This document shows positions 17,337-58,831 of a stretch of 64,000 nucleotides of DNA, one piece after another (the stretch's first letter is position 1; each line of letters starts with the position of its first letter). Origin of the DNA: Acidimicrobiales bacterium (GTDB lineage Bacteria > Actinomycetota > Acidimicrobiia > Acidimicrobiales > JAHWLA01); the NCBI GenBank assembly GCA_035536915.1, contig DATLNE010000031.1, forward strand, positions 124,001 through 188,000. The letters run 5' to 3'. A program made the translations under genes and the position numbers. The notes beneath the pieces were generated by a model. That model saw only the letters and a program-made list of their open reading frames with translations, was not told the origin of the DNA and did no database searches.

Positions 17337-19049
17337 TTACCTCGTCGCCCGGCGCACCGGCATCCGCACCCATTCACGGAAGCCGAGGCCAAGGGCGATG
17401 AGAAGCATGGCCAGTGCCGTCAGGGGGACTGCGTTCGTCCCGGTGGCGGCCAGGCTGCGGTCGTTCTCCGTGCCGGTGCCGGGGATGATCGGCGCCGACG
17501 GGGCGAAGTTCGACGTGCTGGTGATCGAAGCGAGGGTGACGTTGCCGCCGTCGGCCAGCGCTCCGGCCTCAGTGGCGTCCACCTCGGCGCCGAGCAGGCC
17601 CATGGCGGCGTCGAGGCCGTCGAGGACTGCGGAGGCACCCAGGCCTTCGAGGGTCTCTTCCACGCTGCCGGCCAGGCCCGTCACTGTGGCGACGATGTCG
17701 GCCAGTGCCTCAGGAGGCGTGATGGTGGCCGACAGGGCGGTGATGCCGTCGACTGCCTCGACGTAGCCGCCCGCCGAGGTGACGCCGTGGTCGGCCGCCC
17801 GCTCGAAGACCTTGACGTCGACCAGGTCGGCCAGGTCGGCGTGCACCACGCCGAGGACGCCGCCGATGGTGTCGTTGACCGTGTTGACGGCGGCGTTGAT
17901 GTCGGCCAGGTGCGAAGCGAGGTCGATGCCGTCGACTGCCACGCCGCCGACCTTCAGGCCGCCCAGCTTGGCGGTCACTTCGGCAACGCTGTTCTCCACG
18001 GTGTCAGCCGCCTTGGTGGTGACGCCTACTTCGACGCCGTTCACCTCGAGCAGGGCCACACCGTCGAGCACGGCGAGCACGTCGTCGATGAGCGTGGTGA
18101 GGGTGCCCTGCACGTGCTCGATAAGGGTGTCGAGCTGTGCGGTGACGTCGGTCAGGTCGGTGATCGCAGTCTCGACGTCGTCGTTGATGACTTCGCCCAA
18201 GCCGATGCCGTTGACGGTCCCGACGATCGTCTGCACGGTCTCGCCGGTCGGCAGCGCCGGCGTCGTGGCAGCGGCTGCGGCCTGCAGCTCGTCGATCTGC
18301 GCATTGAGCGCAGCGACGGCGGTGTCGACGGCCTCACCGGTGGCGAGGTCGCCAACCGGCACGCCGAGCTCGTCGAGCAGGTCGGTCAGCAGGTCGAGGG
18401 GGAGGTCGCCCAACGAGATGTTGAGGCCGGCCAGCAACGAACCGAGGTCGAGCACGACCACTTGGTCGATCTTCACGGCGCGGGTGCCGGTGGAGGCTGC
18501 CGAGGTGGCTGCCGTCTCGACGTCGGAGGTCACGCCTTCCAGGGTGGCCAGGCCACCGGCGACGGCGGCGTCGGTCAGGGCGGCGTCGAGGCCTGCCGTC
18601 GAGGAGGCGGCCGACGCAGCCGAGCTGAGGCTGGCAGCGCCGAGGGTGCCGGACAGCACCGCTTCAGGGATTGTCACGCCGGTCGCAGGCTCGGAGAGGT
18701 TGAGCGAGCCGATGGTCACCGACTCGTCACCGCCGGGCTGCTTCGACTCGGCGGCGCCGGAGCTCAGGTTGAGCGCATCGACAAGCTCGGAGGAGACCTC
18801 CACGCCGGTCAGGCGGGAGAACGCTTCAGGGGCCGAGACGGCGGGGTCGATGGTGGCCCGGGCGTCGTCGCCCAACAGGCGAACCCCGAGGACGGAGCCG
18901 TCGGTGCCGAGGGCCACGCCTACGACGGTGGTGGTCACGTCGGCGGTGCCTACGCCGGCGGTGGCGGCCGAAGCCGAACCGAACGACGAGGCCGCGCCGA
19001 CAAGGACGACGGTGGTGACTGCGGCGACTGCCGCTCGGACGTTTCGCAT
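17337..19049 (-). CDS. LAATG sortase-anchored surface protein
   Basis: 570-residue exported protein. The N-terminus MRNVRAAVAAVTTVVLVG... is a signal peptide, likely cut after the Ala-rich stretch near residue 28. The C-terminus has the complete cell-wall sorting signal: LAATG, a hydrophobic helix (PLTALAMLLIALGLGF) and a basic tail ending RRATR. LAxTG is the form used by class E sortases of high-GC Gram-positives. The body is Ala/Val/Asp/Thr-rich with heptad-like repeats and almost no aromatic residues, so it may be an extended or helical stalk. GGGGGAA lies about 6 nt before ATG 19049. No sortase is in the window. The domain function is unknown. Confidence 0.8.
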   Translation of the reverse strand: MRNVRAAVAAVTTVVLVGAASSFGSASAATAGVGTADVTTTVVGVALGTDGSVLGVRLLGDDARATIDPAVSAPEAFSRLTGVEVSSELVDALNLSSGAAESKQPGGDESVTIGSLNLSEPATGVTIPEAVLSGTLGAASLSSAASAASSTAGLDAALTDAAVAGGLATLEGVTSDVETAATSAASTGTRAVKIDQVVVLDLGSLLAGLNISLGDLPLDLLTDLLDELGVPVGDLATGEAVDTAVAALNAQIDELQAAAAATTPALPTGETVQTIVGTVNGIGLGEVINDDVETAITDLTDVTAQLDTLIEHVQGTLTTLIDDVLAVLDGVALLEVNGVEVGVTTKAADTVENSVAEVTAKLGGLKVGGVAVDGIDLASHLADINAAVNTVNDTIGGVLGVVHADLADLVDVKVFERAADHGVTSAGGYVEAVDGITALSATITPPEALADIVATVTGLAGSVEETLEGLGASAVLDGLDAAMGLLGAEVDATEAGALADGGNVTLASITSTSNFAPSAPIIPGTGTENDRSLAATGTNAVPLTALAMLLIALGLGFREWVRMPVRRATR

Positions 19050-48896: not shown

Positions 48897-49919
48897 GTGT
48901 CACTGCACGGAACGCTGGAAACCTTTGCTCTCCCCGACGTACTGGCGCTGCTTGCTGCCACCAAGAAGAGTGGCGAGCTGCGCGTGGTCGGGGGGAAGAC
49001 CGATGGACGGGTGTGGTTCGACGCGGGCGCCGTGGTGGGTGCCGACGTGGGCCGAGCCGTGGGCTACGTCGATGCCGTCTTCGAGCTGTTGCGCCTGGAG
49101 ACCGGCAAGTTCTCCTTCGACGCCGAGAAGACGGCCGACGCCCCCGCTGAGCCTTCGAGCATCGAGCCGCTGCTGGCCGAAGCCCAGGCCCGGCTGGCCG
49201 AATGGCGTTCGATCGAAGCGATCATCCCCTCGGTCGACCACGCCGTGGTGCTGGCTGCCGACATCAGCCACCCCCACGTCATGGTGACCGGACCGCAATG
49301 GCGGGCCCTGGTCGGCGTGTCGTCGTCGCCGACCGTCAGCGCCGTCATCGACCGCCTGGGCACCGGCGAGTTCGACACCTGCCGCACCCTCAAGGAACTG
49401 GTCGATGCCGGGCTGCTCACGGTGGAGGAGCGGGCCGCCGCCCCTGCGCCTGCGCCCGCCCCGGAACCCGAGCCTGCGCCTGTCGTGGCCGTCGAGCCCG
49501 AATCTGCGCCGGAACCTGAGCCTGCGCCTGTGGTGGCGGCCGAACCCGAGCCCGAGCCCGAGGTCGTCCCGGAGCCCGAGCCCGTGGCCGAAGCACCGGT
49601 CGTGCCCGTCCAACTCGACCCCACGCCCGCGGGCGAGCGCCCCAAGATCCAGGCCCTGACCAGCTCGCCTGCCGCCGATGCGGCGCAGTTGGAGTCGACG
49701 CCCGCCACCGAAGCCGACGAGCTCGTGCGCCAGGTGGCAGCCATGGAAGCGCCCGCCGAGGCGCCCGAACCCGAGGTGCAGGCCGCCGAGCCCGAGCCCC
49801 AGCCCGCCCCGGAACCCGAGGCGGAGACGCCTGTTCCTGCGGCTGCAGCTGCGGCCGAGGCCGAGGAGCCGATCAACCGCGGCCTCCTGCTCAAGTTCCT
49901 CTCGTCGGTGCGTACCTAG
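48897..49919 (+). CDS. PATAN/DUF4388-domain protein
   Basis: 340-residue cytoplasmic protein. The N-terminal about 100 residues match DUF4388 (PATAN): LHGTLETFALPDVLALLAATKKSGELRV, then GRVWFDAGAVVGA. A second helical domain reaches about residue 178. A long Pro/Glu/Ala-rich unstructured stretch follows, and the tail NRGLLLKFLSSVRT. PATAN domains occur in regulators of twitching motility and surface behaviour. The gene lies just upstream of pilB under a promoter of the same type, so a regulatory role in the pilus is likely. GGAGG precedes GTG 48897. Confidence 0.75.
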   Translation: MSLHGTLETFALPDVLALLAATKKSGELRVVGGKTDGRVWFDAGAVVGADVGRAVGYVDAVFELLRLETGKFSFDAEKTADAPAEPSSIEPLLAEAQARLAEWRSIEAIIPSVDHAVVLAADISHPHVMVTGPQWRALVGVSSSPTVSAVIDRLGTGEFDTCRTLKELVDAGLLTVEERAAAPAPAPAPEPEPAPVVAVEPESAPEPEPAPVVAAEPEPEPEVVPEPEPVAEAPVVPVQLDPTPAGERPKIQALTSSPAADAAQLESTPATEADELVRQVAAMEAPAEAPEPEVQAAEPEPQPAPEPEAETPVPAAAAAAEAEEPINRGLLLKFLSSVRT

Positions 49920-50002: not shown

Positions 50003-51679
50003 ATGTCTGAAGAGAACCAGCTCGGCGCACTCCTCGTGGCAAGCAAGCTCCTGAGCCAGGAGCAGCTCGATGCTGCCATCGCCGAGCAAGCCGACACCAG
50101 CAAGTCGCTGGGCCGCATCCTCATCGACAACCGGCTCCTGAAGGAGTCCGACCTGGTGTCGGTGCTGGCCGCCCAGCTGGGGCTGGAGTTCGTCGACCTC
50201 GACGAGACCCAGATCGACGCCAGCGCCGCCGGCCTCATCAGCGACGCCCTGGCCCGCCGCTACCAGGCGCTGCCCATCGGCTGGGACAACGGCCGCCTGG
50301 TGCTGGCCATGGCCGATCCCGGCAACGTGTTCGCCGTCGACGACATCCGCACGATGACCAAGAGCGAGATCAAGGTCGTCGTCACCACGCCTGCGTCGGT
50401 CAACGCGGCGATCGACAAGTACCACCGCATGGACAGCGAGGCCGAGGACATCTCGGCCCAGGCGGCCAGCGAGTTCGACGACCTCGACGACATCTCCAAC
50501 GTGCGGGAGGTCGTCGAAGACGCCCCCATCGTCAAGCTGGTCAACCTGCTCATCACCCAGGCGGTCAACGACCGGGCGTCCGACATCCACATCGAGCCCA
50601 CCGAGCGCGACGTGCGGGTGCGCTACCGCATCGACGGCGTGCTCCACGAGGTGATGCGGCCCCACAAGAGCATCCAGTCGGGGATCATCTCCCGGCTCAA
50701 GATCATGGCCGACATCAACATCGCCGAGCGCCGGGTTCCCCAGGACGGCCGGGTGTCGGTGACACTGCAGGGCAAGCAGGTCGACCTCCGGGTGGCGACC
50801 CTGCCCACCGTGTACGGCGAGAAGATCGTCATGCGCATCCTCGACAAGTCGACCGCGCTGTTGAAGCTGAGCGACCTCGGCTTCCTGCCGTCGAGCATGG
50901 ACCGCTTCGAGAAGTCGTACCGCAAGCCCTACGGCACCATCCTGGTCACCGGGCCCACCGGCTCGGGCAAGTCGACCACCCTGTACGCCACCCTCAACAT
51001 CCTCAACGACGAGTCGAAGAACGTCATCACCGTCGAGGACCCGGTGGAGTACCGCCTGCCCGGCATCAACCAGGTGCAGGTCAACAACAAGGCAGGCATG
51101 ACCTTTGCCGCTGCCCTGCGCTCGATCCTGCGCTCCGACCCCGACATCGTGCTGGTAGGCGAGATTCGCGACCGCGAGACCGCCACCATCGCCATCGAGG
51201 CCGCCCTCACCGGCCACCTCGTGCTCTCCACCCTGCACACCAACGACGCCGCCACCACCCCCACCCGCTTGGTGGAGATGGGCGTGGAGCCGTTCCTGGT
51301 GGCCTCGGCCCTCGACTGCATCGTGGCCCAGCGCTTGGCCCGACGCCTGTGCGAGAAGTGCAAGGAGCCGTACCAGGCGACCATGGCCGAGCTGCAGACG
51401 GCGGGCTGGGACATGGAGGGCGAAGAAGAGCCCCCCGTCGTGTACCGCCCGGTGGGCTGCACCCAGTGCGGCAAGACCGGCTACCACGGCCGTTTCGCCA
51501 TCCACGAGGTCCTCACCGTGACCGAGGACATCGAGCGCATGATCGTCGACCGTGAGCACTCCGAGGACATCAAGAAGATGGCCATTGCGCAGGGAATGCT
51601 CACGCTCCGTGGTGCCGGCCTGGTCCATGTCCGCGAGGGCATGACGTCGATCGAGGAGATTCTCAGGGTCGTCGCCTGA
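50003..51679 (+). CDS. pilB: Type IV pilus extension ATPase PilB
   Basis: 558-residue hexameric motor that drives pilus assembly at the cytoplasmic face. The N-terminus (about 5-60) is an MshEN-type repeat (LGALLVASKLLSQEQLDAAI, then SLGRILIDNRLLKESDLVSVL), a module known to bind c-di-GMP in relatives. N2 domain RASDIHIEPTERDVRVRYRIDG follows. Walker A is GPTGSGKSTTLYATL near 315, then an Asp box and Walker B (DIVLVGEIRD), and a zinc-type CEKC ... CTQCGKTGYHGR. All motor motifs are intact. No ribosome-binding site precedes ATG 50003. Confidence 0.93.
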   Translation: MSEENQLGALLVASKLLSQEQLDAAIAEQADTSKSLGRILIDNRLLKESDLVSVLAAQLGLEFVDLDETQIDASAAGLISDALARRYQALPIGWDNGRLVLAMADPGNVFAVDDIRTMTKSEIKVVVTTPASVNAAIDKYHRMDSEAEDISAQAASEFDDLDDISNVREVVEDAPIVKLVNLLITQAVNDRASDIHIEPTERDVRVRYRIDGVLHEVMRPHKSIQSGIISRLKIMADINIAERRVPQDGRVSVTLQGKQVDLRVATLPTVYGEKIVMRILDKSTALLKLSDLGFLPSSMDRFEKSYRKPYGTILVTGPTGSGKSTTLYATLNILNDESKNVITVEDPVEYRLPGINQVQVNNKAGMTFAAALRSILRSDPDIVLVGEIRDRETATIAIEAALTGHLVLSTLHTNDAATTPTRLVEMGVEPFLVASALDCIVAQRLARRLCEKCKEPYQATMAELQTAGWDMEGEEEPPVVYRPVGCTQCGKTGYHGRFAIHEVLTVTEDIERMIVDREHSEDIKKMAIAQGMLTLRGAGLVHVREGMTSIEEILRVVA

Positions 51680-51690
51680 CCAGCCGATAC
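51663..51690 (+). promoter_or_regulatory. Sigma-28/WhiG-like promoter upstream of pilT
   Basis: TCAG (51663-51666), 16 nt, then GCCGATAC (51683-51690), the best match to GCCGATAA in the window. It overlaps the 3' end of pilB. The predicted start lies 1-3 nt before ATG 51699, so the message would be nearly leaderless. Confidence 0.65.
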
Positions 51691-51698
51691 ACCTGTTC

Positions 51699-53315
51699 AT
51701 GCAGGCCGCATCGCGCCGATTGGGCGAGTTCCTCGTAGACCGCAAGGTCCTTTCACGAGACGTGCTCGAACAGCTCCTCGTCAGGGAGCAGAACGAGCGG
51801 GTTCCGTTGTCCAAGCTCCTCATGTCCGACGGACATGTGGGGGAGAAGGACATGGTCGCCGCGGTGGCGGCGCAGGTGGGCATCCGGTTCGTCGACTTCG
51901 ACCACACCGCCGTCAACCCGACCCTGGACTCGCTGATCCCGGCCGAGCTGGCCCGGGCGCATGTCGCCGTGGCCGTCGACCTCGAAGGCTCCGACCTCCT
52001 GGTCGCCATGGTCGACCCGTCCGACCGCGACGCCATCGGCCAGATCGAGAAGGCGACGAGCTGGACCGTGCTGCCCGCCATCGCCGTGCGCAGCGAGCTG
52101 GAGCGGGTGGTCAACGCCATGTACGGTCCGGCCGCCGGCGCAGCCGGCCCCGTCGGTGCGGGCGTGGCAGGCGACATCGAGATCGCCGTCGACGAAGCAG
52201 GCGGCTCGACCGCCGCCATGGCCCCGGCCAGCGAGATCGCCGCCCAAGAGCTCCACGTCAACGAGCTGCTGGAGCGGGTCGTCGACCTCGGCGGTTCCGA
52301 CCTCCACATGACCGCAGGCGTGCCGCCCGCAGTGCGGGTGCACGGCGAGATCAAGCACCTCACCGAGTTCCCGGTGATGACGCCGTCGGAGATCCGCCGG
52401 ATGATCTACGCCATCCTCACCCAGAAGCAGCGGGAGCGCTTCGAGAACGACCTCGAGCTCGACACCTCGCACTCGGTGCCCGGCCTGGGCCGCTTCCGCG
52501 TCAACGTCTTCCTGCAGCGCGACTCGGTCGGCTCGGTCATGCGCGTGATCCCCTCGGAGGTCGTGCCCTTCGACCAGCTGGGATTGCCCGCCGCGGCCCA
52601 GCAGTTCGCCGGGTTGCCCCGTGGCCTGATCCTGGTCACCGGGCCGACCGGCTCGGGCAAGTCGACGACCTTGGCGTCGATGGTCGACATCATCAATGCC
52701 GGCAAGCCGTGCCACATCATGACGGTCGAGGACCCCATCGAGTTCCTCCACCACCACAAGACCGCCGTCATCAACCAGCGTGAAGTCGGCGAGGACACCT
52801 ACTCGTTCGCCGCTGCCCTCAAGCACGTGCTGCGCCAGGACCCCGACGTGATCCTCGTGGGTGAAATGCGCGACCTGGAGACCATTTCGACGGCGCTGAC
52901 CGCGGCCGAAACCGGCCACCTGGTCTTCGCCACCCTCCACACCCAGGACGCCCCGCAGTCGGTCGACCGCGTGATCGACGTGTTCCCGGCGCACCAGCAG
53001 CAGCAGGTGCGGGTGCAGCTGGCCGCCGCCCTGCAGGGCATCGTGACCCAGCAGCTGGTTCCGACGCCCACCGGCCGAGGCCGGGTCGTCGCCTCCGAGG
53101 TGCTGGTGGCCACGCCGGCGGTCCGCAACCTCATCCGTGAGGGCAAGACGCACCAGATCTACTCCGCCATGCAGGCAGGCGGGAAGTACGGCATGCAGAC
53201 CATGGACATGTCGCTGGCCGGCCTGGTCAAGGCCGGGAAGATCTCACTGGAGACCGCGCTGGAGCGGTGCGCCAACGAACAAGACCTCCGACGCCTCATC
53301 GGCGGCGGACAGTAA
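51699..53315 (+). CDS. pilT: Type IV pilus retraction ATPase PilT with N-terminal MshEN domain
   Basis: 538 residues, against about 345 for ordinary PilT. Residues 1-150 are an added MshEN/T2SSE-N module (RLGEFLVDRKVLSRDVLEQLL, PLSKLLMSDGHVGEKDMVAAV). A short linker leads to a complete PilT core from about 184: GGSDLHMTAGVPPAVRVHGEI, Walker A GPTGSGKSTTL near 314, DPDVILVGEMRD, HTQDAPQSVDRVIDVFP, and the C-terminal AIRNLIRE-type helix (AVRNLIREGKTHQIYSAMQ). It should power retraction, with the extra domain a likely c-di-GMP sensor. It lies between pilB and pilC. Confidence 0.9.
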   Translation: MQAASRRLGEFLVDRKVLSRDVLEQLLVREQNERVPLSKLLMSDGHVGEKDMVAAVAAQVGIRFVDFDHTAVNPTLDSLIPAELARAHVAVAVDLEGSDLLVAMVDPSDRDAIGQIEKATSWTVLPAIAVRSELERVVNAMYGPAAGAAGPVGAGVAGDIEIAVDEAGGSTAAMAPASEIAAQELHVNELLERVVDLGGSDLHMTAGVPPAVRVHGEIKHLTEFPVMTPSEIRRMIYAILTQKQRERFENDLELDTSHSVPGLGRFRVNVFLQRDSVGSVMRVIPSEVVPFDQLGLPAAAQQFAGLPRGLILVTGPTGSGKSTTLASMVDIINAGKPCHIMTVEDPIEFLHHHKTAVINQREVGEDTYSFAAALKHVLRQDPDVILVGEMRDLETISTALTAAETGHLVFATLHTQDAPQSVDRVIDVFPAHQQQQVRVQLAAALQGIVTQQLVPTPTGRGRVVASEVLVATPAVRNLIREGKTHQIYSAMQAGGKYGMQTMDMSLAGLVKAGKISLETALERCANEQDLRRLIGGGQ

Positions 53316-53327
53316 GGGGACAAGGGG

Positions 53328-54545
53328 ATGGCCGAGACCTACACCTACAAGGTTCGCGACAAGGCAGGAAAGATGCTGTCGGGCTCCATCGAGGCCGACA
53401 GCACCACCCTGGTCGCCAACAAGCTGCGGCAGATGGGCTACGTGCCCCTGGCCATCGACAAGAAGGCCACGGGCGGCGTCAACAAGGAGCTCTCGCTCTT
53501 CAAGCCCAAGGTCAAGATGAAGGACCTTGCGGTCTTCAGCCGCCAGTTCGCCACCATGATCAACTCGGGCCTGTCGCTCCTGCGCTCGCTGAGCATCCTG
53601 GAGGAGCAGACGGAGAGCAAGGCGCTCAAGCCGATCCTCCACGAGGTCCGCACCGACGTCGAGAAGGGCGCGTCGTTGTCGCAGGCGCTGGCCCGACACC
53701 CGAAGGCGTTTAACCGGCTCTACGTCGCCATGGTGCGAGCGGGCGAGACGGGCGGCGTCCTCGACTCCGTGCTGCTGCAGCTTTCCGACACCATCGAGAA
53801 GCAGGTGGAACTGAAGCAGAAGATCAAGGCGGCCTTGACCTACCCGGTCGCGGTGCTCGCCTTGGTCATGCTCATCGTCACCGCGATGCTCCTGTTCGTG
53901 GTGCCCACCTTCAAGGGCATCTACGGCGACCTCGGCGGCACCCTGCCGCTCCCGACCCGCATCCTCATGCTCGTCTCCGAGGCGTTGAAGAAGTGGTTCC
54001 CGCTCGTGGTGGTCGCCCAGATCGCCGGACTCTTCGCCTTCAAGCGGTGGATCGAGACGGAGACCGGACGTGGTGCCTGGGACGCCTTCAAGCTGAAGGT
54101 CCCGGTGTTCGGCGGCCTCGTGCACAAGACGGCGGTCACCCGCTTCTCCCGCACCTTGGCCAGCCTGCTGCGTTCCGGTGTGCCGATCCTGGAATCGCTG
54201 GAGATCACCTCCGAGACCGTGGGGAACACCGTCGTCGCCAAGGCTGTGAAAGACATGCAGGAGGGCGTCAAGCAGGGCGAGCCGATCGCCAAGCGCATGG
54301 CGGAGCACGACAAGATCTTCCCGCCCATGGTCACCCAGATGCTCGCCGTCGGTGAAGAGACCGGCGCCGTCGACACCATGCTCGACAAGGTGGGCGAGTT
54401 CTACGAGCAGGAAGTGGAGTCGACGGTCAACGCGCTGACCTCACTCCTCGAGCCGCTGCTCATCATGTTCCTTGGTGGTGCGGTCGGCGGCATGGTGATC
54501 GCCCTCTACATGCCGATGTTCAACGTGATCAACCTGATCAAGTAG
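53328..54545 (+). CDS. pilC: Type IV pilus inner-membrane platform protein PilC
   Basis: 405-residue GspF/PilC-family membrane protein that couples the ATPases to the pilus. An N-terminal FKVRDKAG-type segment (YTYKVRDKAGKMLSG) is followed by two homologous GspF domains, FSRQFATMINSGLSLLRSL (about 67-85) and FSRTLASLLRSGVPILESL (about 271-289), with three membrane helices. AAGGGGAC precedes ATG 53328. It is the last gene before a strong terminator. Confidence 0.93.
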   Translation: MAETYTYKVRDKAGKMLSGSIEADSTTLVANKLRQMGYVPLAIDKKATGGVNKELSLFKPKVKMKDLAVFSRQFATMINSGLSLLRSLSILEEQTESKALKPILHEVRTDVEKGASLSQALARHPKAFNRLYVAMVRAGETGGVLDSVLLQLSDTIEKQVELKQKIKAALTYPVAVLALVMLIVTAMLLFVVPTFKGIYGDLGGTLPLPTRILMLVSEALKKWFPLVVVAQIAGLFAFKRWIETETGRGAWDAFKLKVPVFGGLVHKTAVTRFSRTLASLLRSGVPILESLEITSETVGNTVVAKAVKDMQEGVKQGEPIAKRMAEHDKIFPPMVTQMLAVGEETGAVDTMLDKVGEFYEQEVESTVNALTSLLEPLLIMFLGGAVGGMVIALYMPMFNVINLIK

Positions 54546-54622: not shown

Positions 54623-54650
54623 CGAAGAGTCATTTTCGGATGGACGATTA
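54623..54650 (+). promoter_or_regulatory. Weak sigma-28-like promoter before pilin 1
   Basis: CGAA, 16 nt, then GACGATTA (54643-54650). The -10 part fits the pilus motif and the -35 part is poor. The predicted leader of about 65 nt contains a GTGCG/CGCAC hairpin and ends in AAAGGGG. Confidence 0.4.
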
Positions 54651-54722
54651 ACACGGCCAGTGGCCGTTGCCGATCTTTCCCGTGTGCGTGATCTGGCGCA
54701 CAACTGCGAAAGGGGTGCGGGG

Positions 54723-55253
54723 ATGGACCACAACCGGAGGGGCGGGGAGGACGGGTTCACCCTGGTCGAACTACTGGCAGTCGTCGCCATCATCGGCATC
54801 CTCAGTGCGATCGCCGTTCCGACGCTCCTGCGGGCCCAGGGCAGCGCCAAGAAAGCGTCTGCGCAGTCGAACGTCCGCTCGGCGCTGAGTGCAGTCAAGA
54901 CGCTCCCCGTCGAACACCACGCGTACTGGGTGGACACGGAGACAACCACGCTGGGGCTGCTCCAGGCGGCTGAGCCCTCGTTGCAGTGGGTGGCGACAAT
55001 GGGCAGTCCCTCCGGCACGTCCGACGAGGTGAGCTGGACCTCTACCGCCACCCAGGTCGTCGTAGCCGTGCGCTCTGCCGACGGCCACTGCTTCTACGTC
55101 CGTGACATCACCGATCCCGACAACCCCGAGGCGGGCACGTCGTACGGGAAGACCGTGGTGAGCTCGGCAACACCGTGCGAAGCCGACGGCGCAGGCCCGG
55201 TGTGGAAGAGTTCGCAGGCCGCCGGGTGGCCGAACACCGGCCCCAGCGCCTGA
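54723..55253 (+). CDS. Type IV pilin-like protein 1
   Basis: 176-residue prepilin. A short leader ends in Gly11, then FTLVELLAVVAIIGILSAIAVPTLLRAQ-type helix with Glu16 at the +5 position, the PilD cleavage and methylation signature. The C-terminal domain has Cys in GHCFYVRD and TPCEADG that can form the pilin D-loop disulfide. It resembles pilin 2 in overall plan (SALSAVKTL, LLQAAEPSLQWV). ATG 54723 has AAAGGGG upstream. It could be a second major pilin or an abundant minor pilin. Confidence 0.85.
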   Translation: MDHNRRGGEDGFTLVELLAVVAIIGILSAIAVPTLLRAQGSAKKASAQSNVRSALSAVKTLPVEHHAYWVDTETTTLGLLQAAEPSLQWVATMGSPSGTSDEVSWTSTATQVVVAVRSADGHCFYVRDITDPDNPEAGTSYGKTVVSSATPCEADGAGPVWKSSQAAGWPNTGPSA

Positions 55254-55269
55254 GCCTGGAAAACCCGCT

Positions 55270-55297
55270 CAAGTCGGGCAGCGAATCCGGCGATACA
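55270..55297 (+). promoter_or_regulatory. Sigma-28/WhiG-like promoter upstream of riboswitch and pilin 2
   Basis: TCAA (55270-55273), 16 nt, then GGCGATAC (55290-55297). The predicted transcription start near 55304 lies immediately before the riboswitch, so the RNA would begin with the aptamer. Confidence 0.65.
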
Positions 55298-55307
55298 TCT
55301 AGTGCGA

Positions 55308-55410
55308 GCAGGTGCTCTTGAAAAAGGCAAACCCGTCGGGAGGCGGGGGCGCAATGCCACGGAGCCGATCCCCACAGCGTGGTGGGAAGGCCAGCCGGGC
55401 TACCTGGAGG
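55308..55410 (+). ncRNA. Cyclic di-GMP-I (GEMM-I) riboswitch-like leader
   Basis: The leader of pilin 2 follows the GEMM-I layout. GGT of the outer stem comes first, then GGCAAACC, a 6-bp stem CCCGTC/GGCGGG capped by the GNRA loop GGGA, then GGCGCAATGCC (consensus GACGCAAAGCC). A second stem CCACG/CGTGG follows, then GGGAAGG and GCCGGGCTACC closing the outer stem. The base before CGCAA is G where A is the rule, and CAAAG is CAATG, so ligand affinity may differ. About 90 nt follow before ATG 55499, with a possible CCGAT/ATCGG stem as expression platform. Confidence 0.75.
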
Positions 55411-55498
55411 ACCGATTCCGGTGAGTTACGGATCGGGCCCGATGGGAGGGGTTCACGGTTCGCAATCCATTGCACATCACCGGAAAGAGAGCTTCCAC

Positions 55499-56017
55499 AT
55501 GATTGACGCCATTCGTCGGCGCTTGGCCAAGGACGAAGAGGGCTTCACCCTCATCGAACTGATGGTCGTTGTCCTGATCATCGGCATCCTCGTCGCCATC
55601 GCCGTCCCGACCTTCCTGAAGGCTCAGGACAATGCGAAGAGCAAGGCTGCGACCTCGAACCTGCGGTCCGGCCTGAGCGGTTCCAAGACCTTCTTCACCG
55701 AGAACCAGTCCTACGCCGGTGCCACCGTTCTCCTCCTCAAGGGTGTCGAGCCCTCGCTGGACTGGACGACCGGCGCTTCCACGACGCCCGAGCAGATCTC
55801 GTTCGCAGTGGACACAAGCGGCAACATCATGGGCCTGGCCAACCGTTCCAAGGCGGGCTACTGCTACTTCATCGTGGACAACACCACGAGCGGATCCGGC
55901 GGTACCACCTACGCCAAGTCGAAGGCGACAGCCGCCACGTGCACGGCCACCACGAGCGCAACCTTCGTGGCTGCCGACTACGACTTCGGCTCCAGCACCA
56001 GCACCGCCAAGTGGTAA
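55499..56017 (+). CDS. Type IV major pilin-like protein 2
   Basis: 172-residue prepilin with leader MIDAIRRRLAKDEEG cut after Gly15, then FTLIELMVVVLIIGILVAIAV with Glu20 at +5. The globular part has a cysteine pair (GYCYFIVD and ATCTAT) and a Ser/Thr/Gly-rich surface, ending SSTSTAKW. It is probably the main pilus subunit, because it alone has a dedicated promoter, a c-di-GMP-type riboswitch and a strong terminator. The ribosome-binding site is weak (GAAAGAG), consistent with control of translation. Confidence 0.9.
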   Translation: MIDAIRRRLAKDEEGFTLIELMVVVLIIGILVAIAVPTFLKAQDNAKSKAATSNLRSGLSGSKTFFTENQSYAGATVLLLKGVEPSLDWTTGASTTPEQISFAVDTSGNIMGLANRSKAGYCYFIVDNTTSGSGGTTYAKSKATAATCTATTSATFVAADYDFGSSTSTAKW

Positions 56018-56103: not shown

Positions 56104-56877
56104 ATGACTGCGTTCCTCGTTGTGACCGCCGCTCTGTTCGGCCTGGTCGTCGGTTCCTTCCTCAACGTGGTGATCTACCGGGTCCCGCGGAAGGAGTCCG
56201 TCTCCACACCCCGCTCGCGATGCCCGCACTGCGGCACCCAGCTCGCAGCGCGCGACAACGTGCCCGTGCTCTCGTGGCTGCTGCTTCGCGGTCGGTGCCG
56301 CACGTGCCGCACAGCGATTGCTCCCCGGTACCCACTGGTGGAAGCCGGCACGGGTGTGCTCTTCGCCGTGGTCGCCGCTCGCCTGCACGACGATGCCGCC
56401 GCACTGCCGGCCTTCCTCGTCCTGGCCGCTGCGTGCCTCGCTATCTCGCTGATCGACTTCGAGCACTTCATCGTGCCGAACCGCATCGTCTACCCGACGC
56501 TGTTCCTCATGGCCCCTCTGTTCCTGGCCGCCGCGGTCGTCGACGGCGACTGGAGCTCGCTCAGAGGGGCCGCCCTCGGTGGCGTGCTCGGCTTCGGCAT
56601 CCTCTTCGTCATCCACGTGATCAGCCCGCGCGGCATGGGCTTCGGTGACGTGCGCCTGGCCGGGCTGCTCGGCGTCGCCCTCGGTTGGCTCGATCTCGGC
56701 CACGTCCTGCTCGGCCTGTTCCTCGGCTTCCTCACGGCGTCGGTGGTGAGCGTGGCCCTGATTGCGTCCAAGCGCCGGACGCGGAAGGACCGGGTGCCGT
56801 TCGGTCCGTTTCTGGCCGTCGGCGCCTTCCTGGCTCTGCTGGTCGGAGAGCCGATCCTGCGCTGGTACGGCGTGTGA
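56104..56877 (+). CDS. pilD: Prepilin peptidase/N-methyltransferase PilD
   Basis: 257-residue membrane aspartyl protease that removes prepilin leaders and methylates the new N-terminus. The N-terminal methylase-type domain has GSFLNVVIYRVP and a complete four-cysteine zinc site (Cys40, Cys43, Cys65, Cys68). The protease aspartates are Asp118 in LIDFEHFIVPN and Asp182 in GMGFGDVRL. It would process all the prepilins encoded on either side. Confidence 0.95.
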   Translation: MTAFLVVTAALFGLVVGSFLNVVIYRVPRKESVSTPRSRCPHCGTQLAARDNVPVLSWLLLRGRCRTCRTAIAPRYPLVEAGTGVLFAVVAARLHDDAAALPAFLVLAAACLAISLIDFEHFIVPNRIVYPTLFLMAPLFLAAAVVDGDWSSLRGAALGGVLGFGILFVIHVISPRGMGFGDVRLAGLLGVALGWLDLGHVLLGLFLGFLTASVVSVALIASKRRTRKDRVPFGPFLAVGAFLALLVGEPILRWYGV

Positions 56878-56990: not shown

Positions 56991-57173
56991 ATGTCTCTGG
57001 ACACTGAACATCGTCTGTTGCGAGTACAAGAGGTCGCCGACGCCATGCGGGTGTCCAACATGACCGTGTACCGCCTCATCCAGTCCGGAGAACTGTCGGC
57101 CATGCGAGTGGGCCGCAGCTACCGGATCAGGGAGCGTGACGTGGAGGCGTATCTGGCAAGGGGGACCGCCTGA
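56991..57173 (+). CDS. Small excisionase/MerR-type HTH DNA-binding protein
   Basis: 60-residue single-domain winged-helix protein: RVQEVADAMRVSNMTVYRLI (helix-turn-helix, about 11-30) and GELSAMRVGRSYRIRERDVEAYL. It resembles the excisionase-type HTH_17 family that also includes small regulators such as BldC. No integrase or phage gene is near. It overlaps pilM by TGATG, so it is made with the pilus genes and is a good candidate for their local regulator. ATG 56991 has GAGG about 7 nt upstream. Confidence 0.8.
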   Translation: MSLDTEHRLLRVQEVADAMRVSNMTVYRLIQSGELSAMRVGRSYRIRERDVEAYLARGTA

Positions 57174-58831
57174 TGGCGACCCGCGTGGTGGGCCTCGACA
57201 TCGGTAGCTATGCCGTGCGCGCCGCAGAATTGGCGCTCGGTGGCAACCAGCCCACGTTGGAGCGCTTCGCGCAGGTGACGTTGCCACCCGGTGCCGTTCG
57301 CAACGGCGAGGTAGTCGACGCCGCCGCTGTGGCGTCGTCGATCCGCAGGCTGTGGAGCGAAGGCGGGTTCAAGTCGAAGCGGGTCATCGTCGGCGTGGCC
57401 AACCAGCGCGTCGTGGTCCGCCAAGCGGAACTCCCCTCCATGAGCGAGGCCGACCTCGAGTCGGCATTGCGCTTCGAGGCCCAGGAGCTCATCCCCATCC
57501 CGATCGAGGACGCCATCCTCGATTTCCAGATCCTCGGCGACACCGTCGGCGCCGACGGCGAGCCGCGGATGCGGGTGCTGCTCGCTGCTGCGCAGCGCGA
57601 CATGGTGCGATCGCACGTCGCCGCCGTCGAAGGCGCGGGCTTGGCGACGGCCGCGGTCGACGTCATCCCCTTCGCGCTGGTGCGATCGGCGACACTTGGT
57701 TCCTCGTACTTCGAGAGCGACGGCGGCGCCGAAGCAGTGGTCTGCATCGGCGGCGGAGTGACCAACGTGGTCGTCCACGAGCAAGGCGTGCCGCGTTTTG
57801 TCCGAGTGCTGTTGGTCGGCGGTGACGACATCACCGAGGCCATCGCCCGCGAACTCAACGTCGACCTCGACATCGCCGAGGACCTGAAGCGTCGCGCCGC
57901 GGCGGGCGGTGGCGACGACGCCGTTGCCCGGGCCGGCCAAATCGTGTCGTCGCGACTCAATCCTCTTGTCGAGGAGATCCGCGGCTCGATCGACTACTAC
58001 TCGGCGCAGACGCAGTCGGCCCCCATCACCCGGGTCCTCGTCACCGGTGGGGCCAGCCGCACCCCGGGCCTCATGGAACGCTTGCAGGCCCAGTTGGGCT
58101 CTCGGGTCGAGCCCGCGCATCCGTTGGCAGGCCTGCGGGTCGGTCCGATTGGCATCGACGAGTCCCAGCTGGCCGAGCTCGAACCGCTCTTGGCCGTGCC
58201 TGTCGGCCTTGCCCTGGCAGGCGAGGTGCAGAAGGGCGTACGTCGCATCTCGCTCCTGCCGCGCGAGATCGCCGCAGTTCGGGTCCAGCGCCGACAGACG
58301 GGTGCTGCGCTCGTGGGTGTCGGGGCGTTGGCGGTGATTCTCTTGGCGCTGTGGGCTGCACGTTCAGCCCAAGGCAACGACGAGCAGGAGAAAGCTGACG
58401 ATGCCGAGGCCGAGGTCGTCGACCTGCAGCGCGAGCGAGCCCAGCATGCCGGCGCGACCGGCCTGCAGGCCGAGGTGACCCAGCGGGAGGCGCAGTTCCG
58501 ACAGGTGCTGGCCGACGACGTCGCTTGGACGAAGATCTTCAACGAGGTGGCCTCCGTCATCCCCGACGACGTCTGGCTCGTCAGCTTCGTCGGGCAGAAG
58601 GGCGCTTCGGGAACGGTCAACGTGACGGGACAAGGCTTCGACCACACGTCCACGGCGCGCTGGCTCCTCCGGGCCGCCGACATCAAGTCGTTCTCTGGGG
58701 TGTGGGTTGCAAACTCCACCGTGAGCGGCACTGGTCGCAACACGATCGTGAACTTCACCTCACAGGCGAACTTGACTCCCAGCGCCCGATCCAATCGTCT
58801 CGACACCCGACTGAGGAACGAACCGTCATGA
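57173..58831 (+). CDS. PilM-PilN fusion protein
   Basis: 552 residues combining two pilus assembly proteins. Residues 1-350 are PilM, an actin-like ATPase with VVGLDIGSYAVRAAEL, FEAQELIPIPIEDAILDFQIL and VTGGASRTPGL. Residues 353-552 are PilN: RRISLLPREI is the PilM-binding motif normally at the very N-terminus of PilN, then a membrane helix (about 375-393), a coiled coil and a ferredoxin-like domain. In most bacteria these are separate genes joined by protein contact; here the contact is a covalent link. The stop overlaps the pilO ATG (ATGA). The frame is continuous with no sign of a sequencing join. Confidence 0.88.
   Translation: MATRVVGLDIGSYAVRAAELALGGNQPTLERFAQVTLPPGAVRNGEVVDAAAVASSIRRLWSEGGFKSKRVIVGVANQRVVVRQAELPSMSEADLESALRFEAQELIPIPIEDAILDFQILGDTVGADGEPRMRVLLAAAQRDMVRSHVAAVEGAGLATAAVDVIPFALVRSATLGSSYFESDGGAEAVVCIGGGVTNVVVHEQGVPRFVRVLLVGGDDITEAIARELNVDLDIAEDLKRRAAAGGGDDAVARAGQIVSSRLNPLVEEIRGSIDYYSAQTQSAPITRVLVTGGASRTPGLMERLQAQLGSRVEPAHPLAGLRVGPIGIDESQLAELEPLLAVPVGLALAGEVQKGVRRISLLPREIAAVRVQRRQTGAALVGVGALAVILLALWAARSAQGNDEQEKADDAEAEVVDLQRERAQHAGATGLQAEVTQREAQFRQVLADDVAWTKIFNEVASVIPDDVWLVSFVGQKGASGTVNVTGQGFDHTSTARWLLRAADIKSFSGVWVANSTVSGTGRNTIVNFTSQANLTPSARSNRLDTRLRNEPS

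Follow-up and report, generated by a model that had tools for sequence, protein, structure and literature searches.

The stretch of DNA that was analysed (64,000 nt; hereafter the window) carries a type IV pilus gene cluster in the order pilB-pilT-pilC-pilin-pilin-pilD-pilM, and a structured RNA element is encoded between its two pilin genes. The genes of the cluster are:

50003-51679, + strand: PilB-type assembly ATPase with an MshEN domain (PF05157, 77.0 bits, cut-off 23.1; NF053729, 52.3 bits, cut-off 38)
51699-53315: PilT-type ATPase
53328-54545: PilC
about 54726-55253: second pilin-like gene, just upstream of the aptamer
55499-56017, + strand: type IV pilin of 172 aa, the controlled gene (N_methyl PF07963, 33.0 bits; TIGR02532, 28.9 bits, cut-off 16.3)
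about 56104-56877: prepilin peptidase (pilD)
57173-58831: PilM

An earlier note on this DNA had placed the RNA directly upstream of the major pilin. It does lie directly before a type IV pilin gene, whose start (55499) follows the 3' end of the aptamer by 91 nt; that this is the major pilin is likely, though not proven, because the second pilin-like gene lies just upstream. GTG 55379 or GTG 55421 as an alternative pilin start, in an open frame that continues through the pilin, was discarded since it is out of frame in the copy of the same genus (L043). The MshEN domain of the PilB-type ATPase is a possible third c-di-GMP input, besides the two control steps proposed below, but the key Arg and Gly are substituted in both of its motifs (QLG and SLG, read from the sequence), so that c-di-GMP binding is uncertain. 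Pfam also places an N-terminal MshEN domain (52.8 bits) on the PilT-family ATPase, where it falls short of the NCBIfam cut-off for the c-di-GMP motif. To our knowledge, retraction ATPases seldom carry such a domain. The gene just upstream of pilB (48897-49919) encodes a DUF4388-domain protein whose long tail is rich in proline and glutamate.

A cmscan search of the 64-kb window reached a single Rfam family, RF01051, with one match. The match scores 58.1 bits (gathering score 35; E 9e-9), and the alignment is full-length (model positions 1-87 of 87). This is the covariance search that the earlier note had proposed for its suspected GEMM-I aptamer; the identification holds, and every piece named there is present, as are the two base differences it described:

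55316-55407, + strand: c-di-GMP-I (GEMM-I) aptamer, RF01051 (contact residues according to PMC4744006 and PMC11218506)
55315-55318, + strand: P1 5' strand CUCU, read from the sequence, pairing with GGAG 55406-55409
55349, + strand: G for the Rfam-consensus A, in an internal loop
55355, + strand: T for the Rfam-consensus A; the outermost P3 consensus pair is lost (cmscan marks it as non-standard)

The conserved motifs follow one another as GGCAAACC (55326-55333), the GNRA loop GGGA (55338-55341), GCGCAATGCC (55349-55358), the second stem and GCCGGGCTACC (55394-55404). The P1 strands change together among relatives (CUCC/GGAG in L024, GUUC/GAAC in L025). We dropped a candidate pairing of the 5' CUCUU with the Shine-Dalgarno (SD) sequence, as CUCUU is the P1 5' strand. 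In the Vc2 structure the ligand is contacted by G20, A47 and C92 (PMC4744006, PMC11218506), and the counterparts, with the numbering transferred manually through the Rfam alignment, are unchanged in the pilin aptamer (G 55326, A 55353, C 55403). The interhelical C-G pair between the P2 and P3 sides, named in PMC4744006, is likewise kept in the Rfam alignment (C 55350, G 55394). The tetraloop receptor that accompanies the GGGA loop is unlike the GAAA-type consensus. Across the class set, pilin-type aptamers mostly carry GGAA, GAGA or GGGA loops and those before CAP-domain proteins carry GAAA with a CCUA-type P3 segment, suggesting matched loop-receptor classes.

At the equivalent of 55349, the 87 aptamers of the class set have A 61, G 15, C 6 and T 5 times, and the 29 scorable aptamers of the wider phylum have G 16 and A 13 times; the G is ordinary variation. 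At the equivalent of 55355, A is found in 79 of the 87 class copies and in 29/29 phylum copies, C in seven class copies, including the pilin riboswitch L043 of the same genus, and T only in the aptamer under study. The outermost P3 pair has thus been lost repeatedly among relatives, and a change of specificity is not indicated; any effect of the two bases on affinity would probably be modest. The aptamer is thus confirmed as a genuine and fairly ordinary member of RF01051, and its intact contact bases lead us to expect c-di-GMP as the ligand, bound in the standard pocket.

The genome encodes six RF01051 copies. Two precede CAP-domain proteins and the others precede a secreted glycosidase-like protein, a camelysin-like protein, a short secreted protein and the pilin of 55499-56017. 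RF01051 is present in 17/99 sampled genomes of relatives, in 34/395 genomes of the class and in 154/396 genomes of the phylum, and in the class set and the set of relatives together a pilin-type gene lies downstream of 30 copies. A contig-level search for pilin relatives gave no confirmed matches, and those used here come from a search of genomes. The six copies and the recurrence before pilins in 30 leaders argue for function. One locus of another genome (L037, G008:C51:57500-64500) has three pilin genes in tandem, and every one of them is preceded by a separate sigma28-type promoter and c-di-GMP-I riboswitch. Secreted CAP-domain proteins follow many other copies (L001, L004 and relatives), and L003 precedes a camelysin-like protein, possibly a biofilm-fibre protein. 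Before a PilV-like gene (L040; G008:C6, aptamer G008:C6:50749-50836, - strand), the P1 3' strand GGAGG appears to be the SD itself, suggesting that ligand binding there would be a direct OFF signal.

Upstream of the aptamer lies a predicted promoter:

55269-55296, + strand: predicted sigma28/WhiG-family promoter, with the -35 element TCAAG at 55269-55273, N16 at 55274-55289 and the -10 element GCGATA at 55290-55295 (GGCGATAC at 55289-55296)

It follows the sigma28/WhiG-type pattern of a TAAA-type -35, a GCCGATAA-type -10 and a spacing of about 15-16 nt, with TCAA for TAAA (C for A) at -35. The WhiG consensus in Rubrobacter is TAAA/GCCGATAA, a consensus shared by WhiG and FliA sigma types (PMC8325347), and a mapped FliA-type promoter in Bdellovibrio reads TTAAG-N16-CCGATA (PMC3627812). 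The pilin promoter is the only zero-mismatch match to TMAA-N16-GSCGATA in the window. Weaker sigma28-like matches, near chance, lie at 54649-54675 before the upstream pilin-like gene (two mismatches) and at 51663-51689 before pilT (one mismatch).

In the 75 nt preceding the aptamer, the pattern occurs in 57/86 class copies from 32 genomes by hand count, against a mean of 1.6 and a maximum of 6 in shuffled controls; the copies are not independent, though the contrast is large. At control positions of the class set it is found in 2/84 (-400) and 0/80 (+300). A relaxed pattern is present before 25/26 pilin and 31/60 non-pilin copies, and in the phylum set before 21 of 30, against 1.0 in shuffles. 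We had first noticed the pattern in pilin leaders, but the consensus derives independently of them, from Rubrobacter and Bdellovibrio. It is strongly indicated that the pilin mRNA has its predicted start, about 20 nt 5' of the aptamer, at a flagellar/WhiG-type sigma promoter.

The region between the aptamer and the pilin start contains the elements of a candidate expression platform, of which P4 and the ribosome-binding region were read from the sequence:

55303-55309, + strand: 5' strand TGCGAGC of a proposed outer helix P0, at about the expected transcription start, complementary to 55458-55464
55412-55436, + strand: local hairpin P4 (CCGATTCC / GGATCGG), which would occupy the anti-SD strand
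55416-55424, + strand: anti-Shine-Dalgarno (anti-SD) strand TTCCGGTGA, a perfect 9-bp complement of 55477-55485
55458-55464, + strand: 3' strand GTTCGCA of P0, whose complementarity to 55303-55309 includes one G-U pair
55477-55489, + strand: ribosome-binding region TCACCGGAAAGAG, of which 55477-55485 pairs with the anti-SD strand

The complement of TTCCGGTGA, TCACCGGAA (55477-55485), continues into the ribosome-binding region GGAAAGAG. Across the 26 leaders compared, the cognate anti-SD helix has a mean energy of -10.06 kcal/mol versus -5.91 kcal/mol for non-cognate pairings, a value that none of 10,000 permutations reached. The pairing is kept with other letters in L037 (CGTGACTGC/GCAGTCACG), L047 (CTCCTGCG/CGCAGGAG), L087 (CGTGATGGGG/CCCCATCACG) and L112 (TCGTCGGTG/CACCGACGA). 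This covarying helix indicates translational control. Hairpins resembling P4 stand 3' of the aptamer in several further leaders of pilin genes (e.g., CCCCG/CGGGG in L037), and because the anti-SD strand overlaps P4, two states would be available to the leader. Helix P0, which crosses the anti-SD helix, has moderate support from pairing energies: its own strands pair at -8.30 kcal/mol versus -7.16 kcal/mol for non-cognate strands in narrow windows (243/10,000 permutations), with a core that is nearly invariant, whereas RNAduplex with wide windows did not support it (2728/10,000).

Folding with and without a locked aptamer gave the same mean SD openness (0.45) and did not separate ON from OFF. 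Class I switches of C. difficile are reported to be uniformly OFF in reporter tests (PMC6200980). We slightly favour the sign in which high c-di-GMP turns pilin translation off.

Two sigma28-type genes were found in the genome. One encodes WhiG (TIGR02479, 279 bits), with S. venezuelae WhiG as its best solved match (6pfj, 347.6 bits). The other, on contig C11, is FliA-like and adjoins a gene assigned by eye as FlgN-like; this second gene (G000 contig C11, 8636-9289) is located between c-di-GMP-I riboswitches at 718-792 and 18031-18120. A search of the genome with the exact RsiG motif as a DNA pattern gave no clear RsiG, which was then located with the PF22802 profile on contig C44 (L090, G000:C44:9105-9599) as two repeats of 61.5 and 31.3 bits (cut-off 27). 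The presence of RsiG and WhiG points to a genome of the Actinomycetota, probably of the Acidimicrobiia. RsiG is encoded in 16/17 riboswitch-bearing relatives, the exception being a genome that is 70% complete, versus 52/82 of the others.

Neither repeat of the RsiG found here retains the full consensus E-x3-S-x2-R-x3-Q-x3-D, the residues being A-S-R-Q-D and E-S-R-H-N, and the alterations are partly common to L164 and L166. In the own genus the E of motif 1 is replaced by A and the D of motif 2 by N or A; the RsiG of G008 has lost these two residues as well, which are retained almost without exception in the rest of the RsiG proteins compared. Thus, c-di-GMP sensing by this RsiG is uncertain. 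In Rubrobacter, Schumacher and colleagues showed type IV pili to be governed by RsiG, c-di-GMP and WhiG (PMC8325347). We infer that WhiG is the sigma factor that uses the pilin promoter.

We consider it probable that a translational c-di-GMP-I riboswitch acts on a pilin mRNA driven by sigma28/WhiG. The mRNA would start at the flagellar/WhiG-type promoter and carry the c-di-GMP-I aptamer in its leader, and c-di-GMP, bound in the standard pocket, would shift the leader between two states. In the OFF state the anti-SD strand would be paired to the ribosome-binding site and translation would be off; in the ON state it would be held in P4, possibly with P0 formed, and translation would be on. Control would be mainly translational at this step. 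Because RsiG and c-di-GMP hold a WhiG-family sigma factor in other actinobacteria, c-di-GMP may act twice on the pilin gene, at transcription start and at translation. If high c-di-GMP turns translation off and RsiG holds WhiG at high c-di-GMP, these would be two reinforcing locks. More tentatively, GEMM-I riboswitches may be placed routinely on WhiG transcripts throughout the Actinomycetota, with c-di-GMP acting serially through RsiG-WhiG, the riboswitch and, for pili, perhaps the MshEN domain of PilB.

The earlier note had suggested that the two substitutions might shift specificity among cyclic dinucleotides. The T at 55355 is indeed unique among the 116 copies tallied and adjoins the binding pocket. 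However, known retargeting changes lie at G20 (cGAMP) or at G20 and C92 (c-di-AMP) (PMC7288161), both bases being unchanged in the pilin aptamer, as is the A47 contact; given also that both differing positions vary among relatives, with G common at 55349 and C recurring at 55355, a retuning to cGAMP or c-di-AMP seems highly improbable. A weakened or decaying aptamer, giving no useful response in a leader kept for other reasons, would account for the departures from consensus at two positions and three pairs, and Vibrio Vc1 illustrates that tight binding need not follow from intact contacts (PMC4744006). Such decay is nevertheless improbable in our judgement, as the score of 58 bits exceeds the cut-off, the architecture is retained in the copy of the same genus and covariation in the leader extends across the class.

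It is also conceivable, though unlikely, that the switch works mainly by transcription termination, intrinsic or Rho-dependent, and that the anti-SD pairing is incidental. GC-rich hairpins do follow the aptamer, and some GEMM-I switches elsewhere are transcriptional, including Bc1 with its two terminators (PMC11218506). Against this, inspection by eye found no U-tract terminator 3' of the leader hairpins, and it is with the ribosome-binding region that the post-aptamer strand covaries. A realistic possibility, if not the one we would expect, is that a flagellar FliA-like sigma rather than WhiG uses the promoter; the riboswitch would then be the only c-di-GMP input before assembly, and the pilin would be co-expressed with flagella. 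The FliA-like gene beside the FlgN-like gene, the consensus common to both sigma types (PMC8325347) and the altered RsiG residues of the own genus all fit this explanation, but the genome has both WhiG and RsiG, and in Rubrobacter pili are known to be under WhiG-type control (PMC8325347).

With translational control of a sigma28/WhiG-driven pilin as the preferred reading, the aptamer adds one member to a large family, and no change of specificity is needed. Its possible importance lies in the wiring: riboswitches stand behind sigma28/WhiG-type promoters far above chance, class- and phylum-wide, and the genomes with such promoter-linked riboswitches mostly encode RsiG too. This predicts that poorly studied actinobacteria have a large regulon of surface proteins, among them pilins, CAP-domain proteins and the camelysin-like protein, and it offers a case, directly open to testing, in which one second messenger would act on one gene at two successive control steps. 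The open-access papers searched yielded no report of a systematic coupling between GEMM-I and WhiG/sigma28 promoters, which is weak evidence of novelty as most subscription papers were outside the scope of the search.

Compared with Vc2 of V. cholerae, the type example of RF01051, the pilin aptamer shares the full-length model match, the contact residues, a GNRA loop, P1 and a position in the leader of a surface-structure gene; it differs in its two non-consensus bases, a GGGA instead of a GAAA loop, the anti-SD platform and the WhiG/sigma28-type promoter. The cGAMP riboswitches of Geobacter (GEMM-Ib), which carry a changed position 20, belong to the same RNA superfamily and are likewise linked with pili and extracellular structures. 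A G20A mutant binds cGAMP (PMC7288161). Membership of GEMM-Ib requires A at position 20 and was rejected for the pilin aptamer, which has G at 55326.

Riboswitches for c-di-GMP before pilins are already known, for example Cdi-2-4 of C. difficile, which also precedes a type IV major pilin gene (pilA1); unlike the element described here, Cdi-2-4 is a class II riboswitch of unrelated fold and an ON switch that acts via transcription read-through (PMC6200980). The RsiG-(c-di-GMP)-WhiG system of Rubrobacter and Streptomyces resembles the present case in its WhiG and RsiG genes and in the WhiG-type promoter of a type IV pilus gene, but the word riboswitch is absent from the Rubrobacter paper (PMC8325347) and the RsiG motif residues are altered here. 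In Bdellovibrio, FliA-type promoters and a c-di-GMP riboswitch RNA likewise occur in one regulatory programme; this merRNA, in contrast to the pilin leader, is without a downstream gene, and its own promoter is not listed as FliA-type (PMC3627812).
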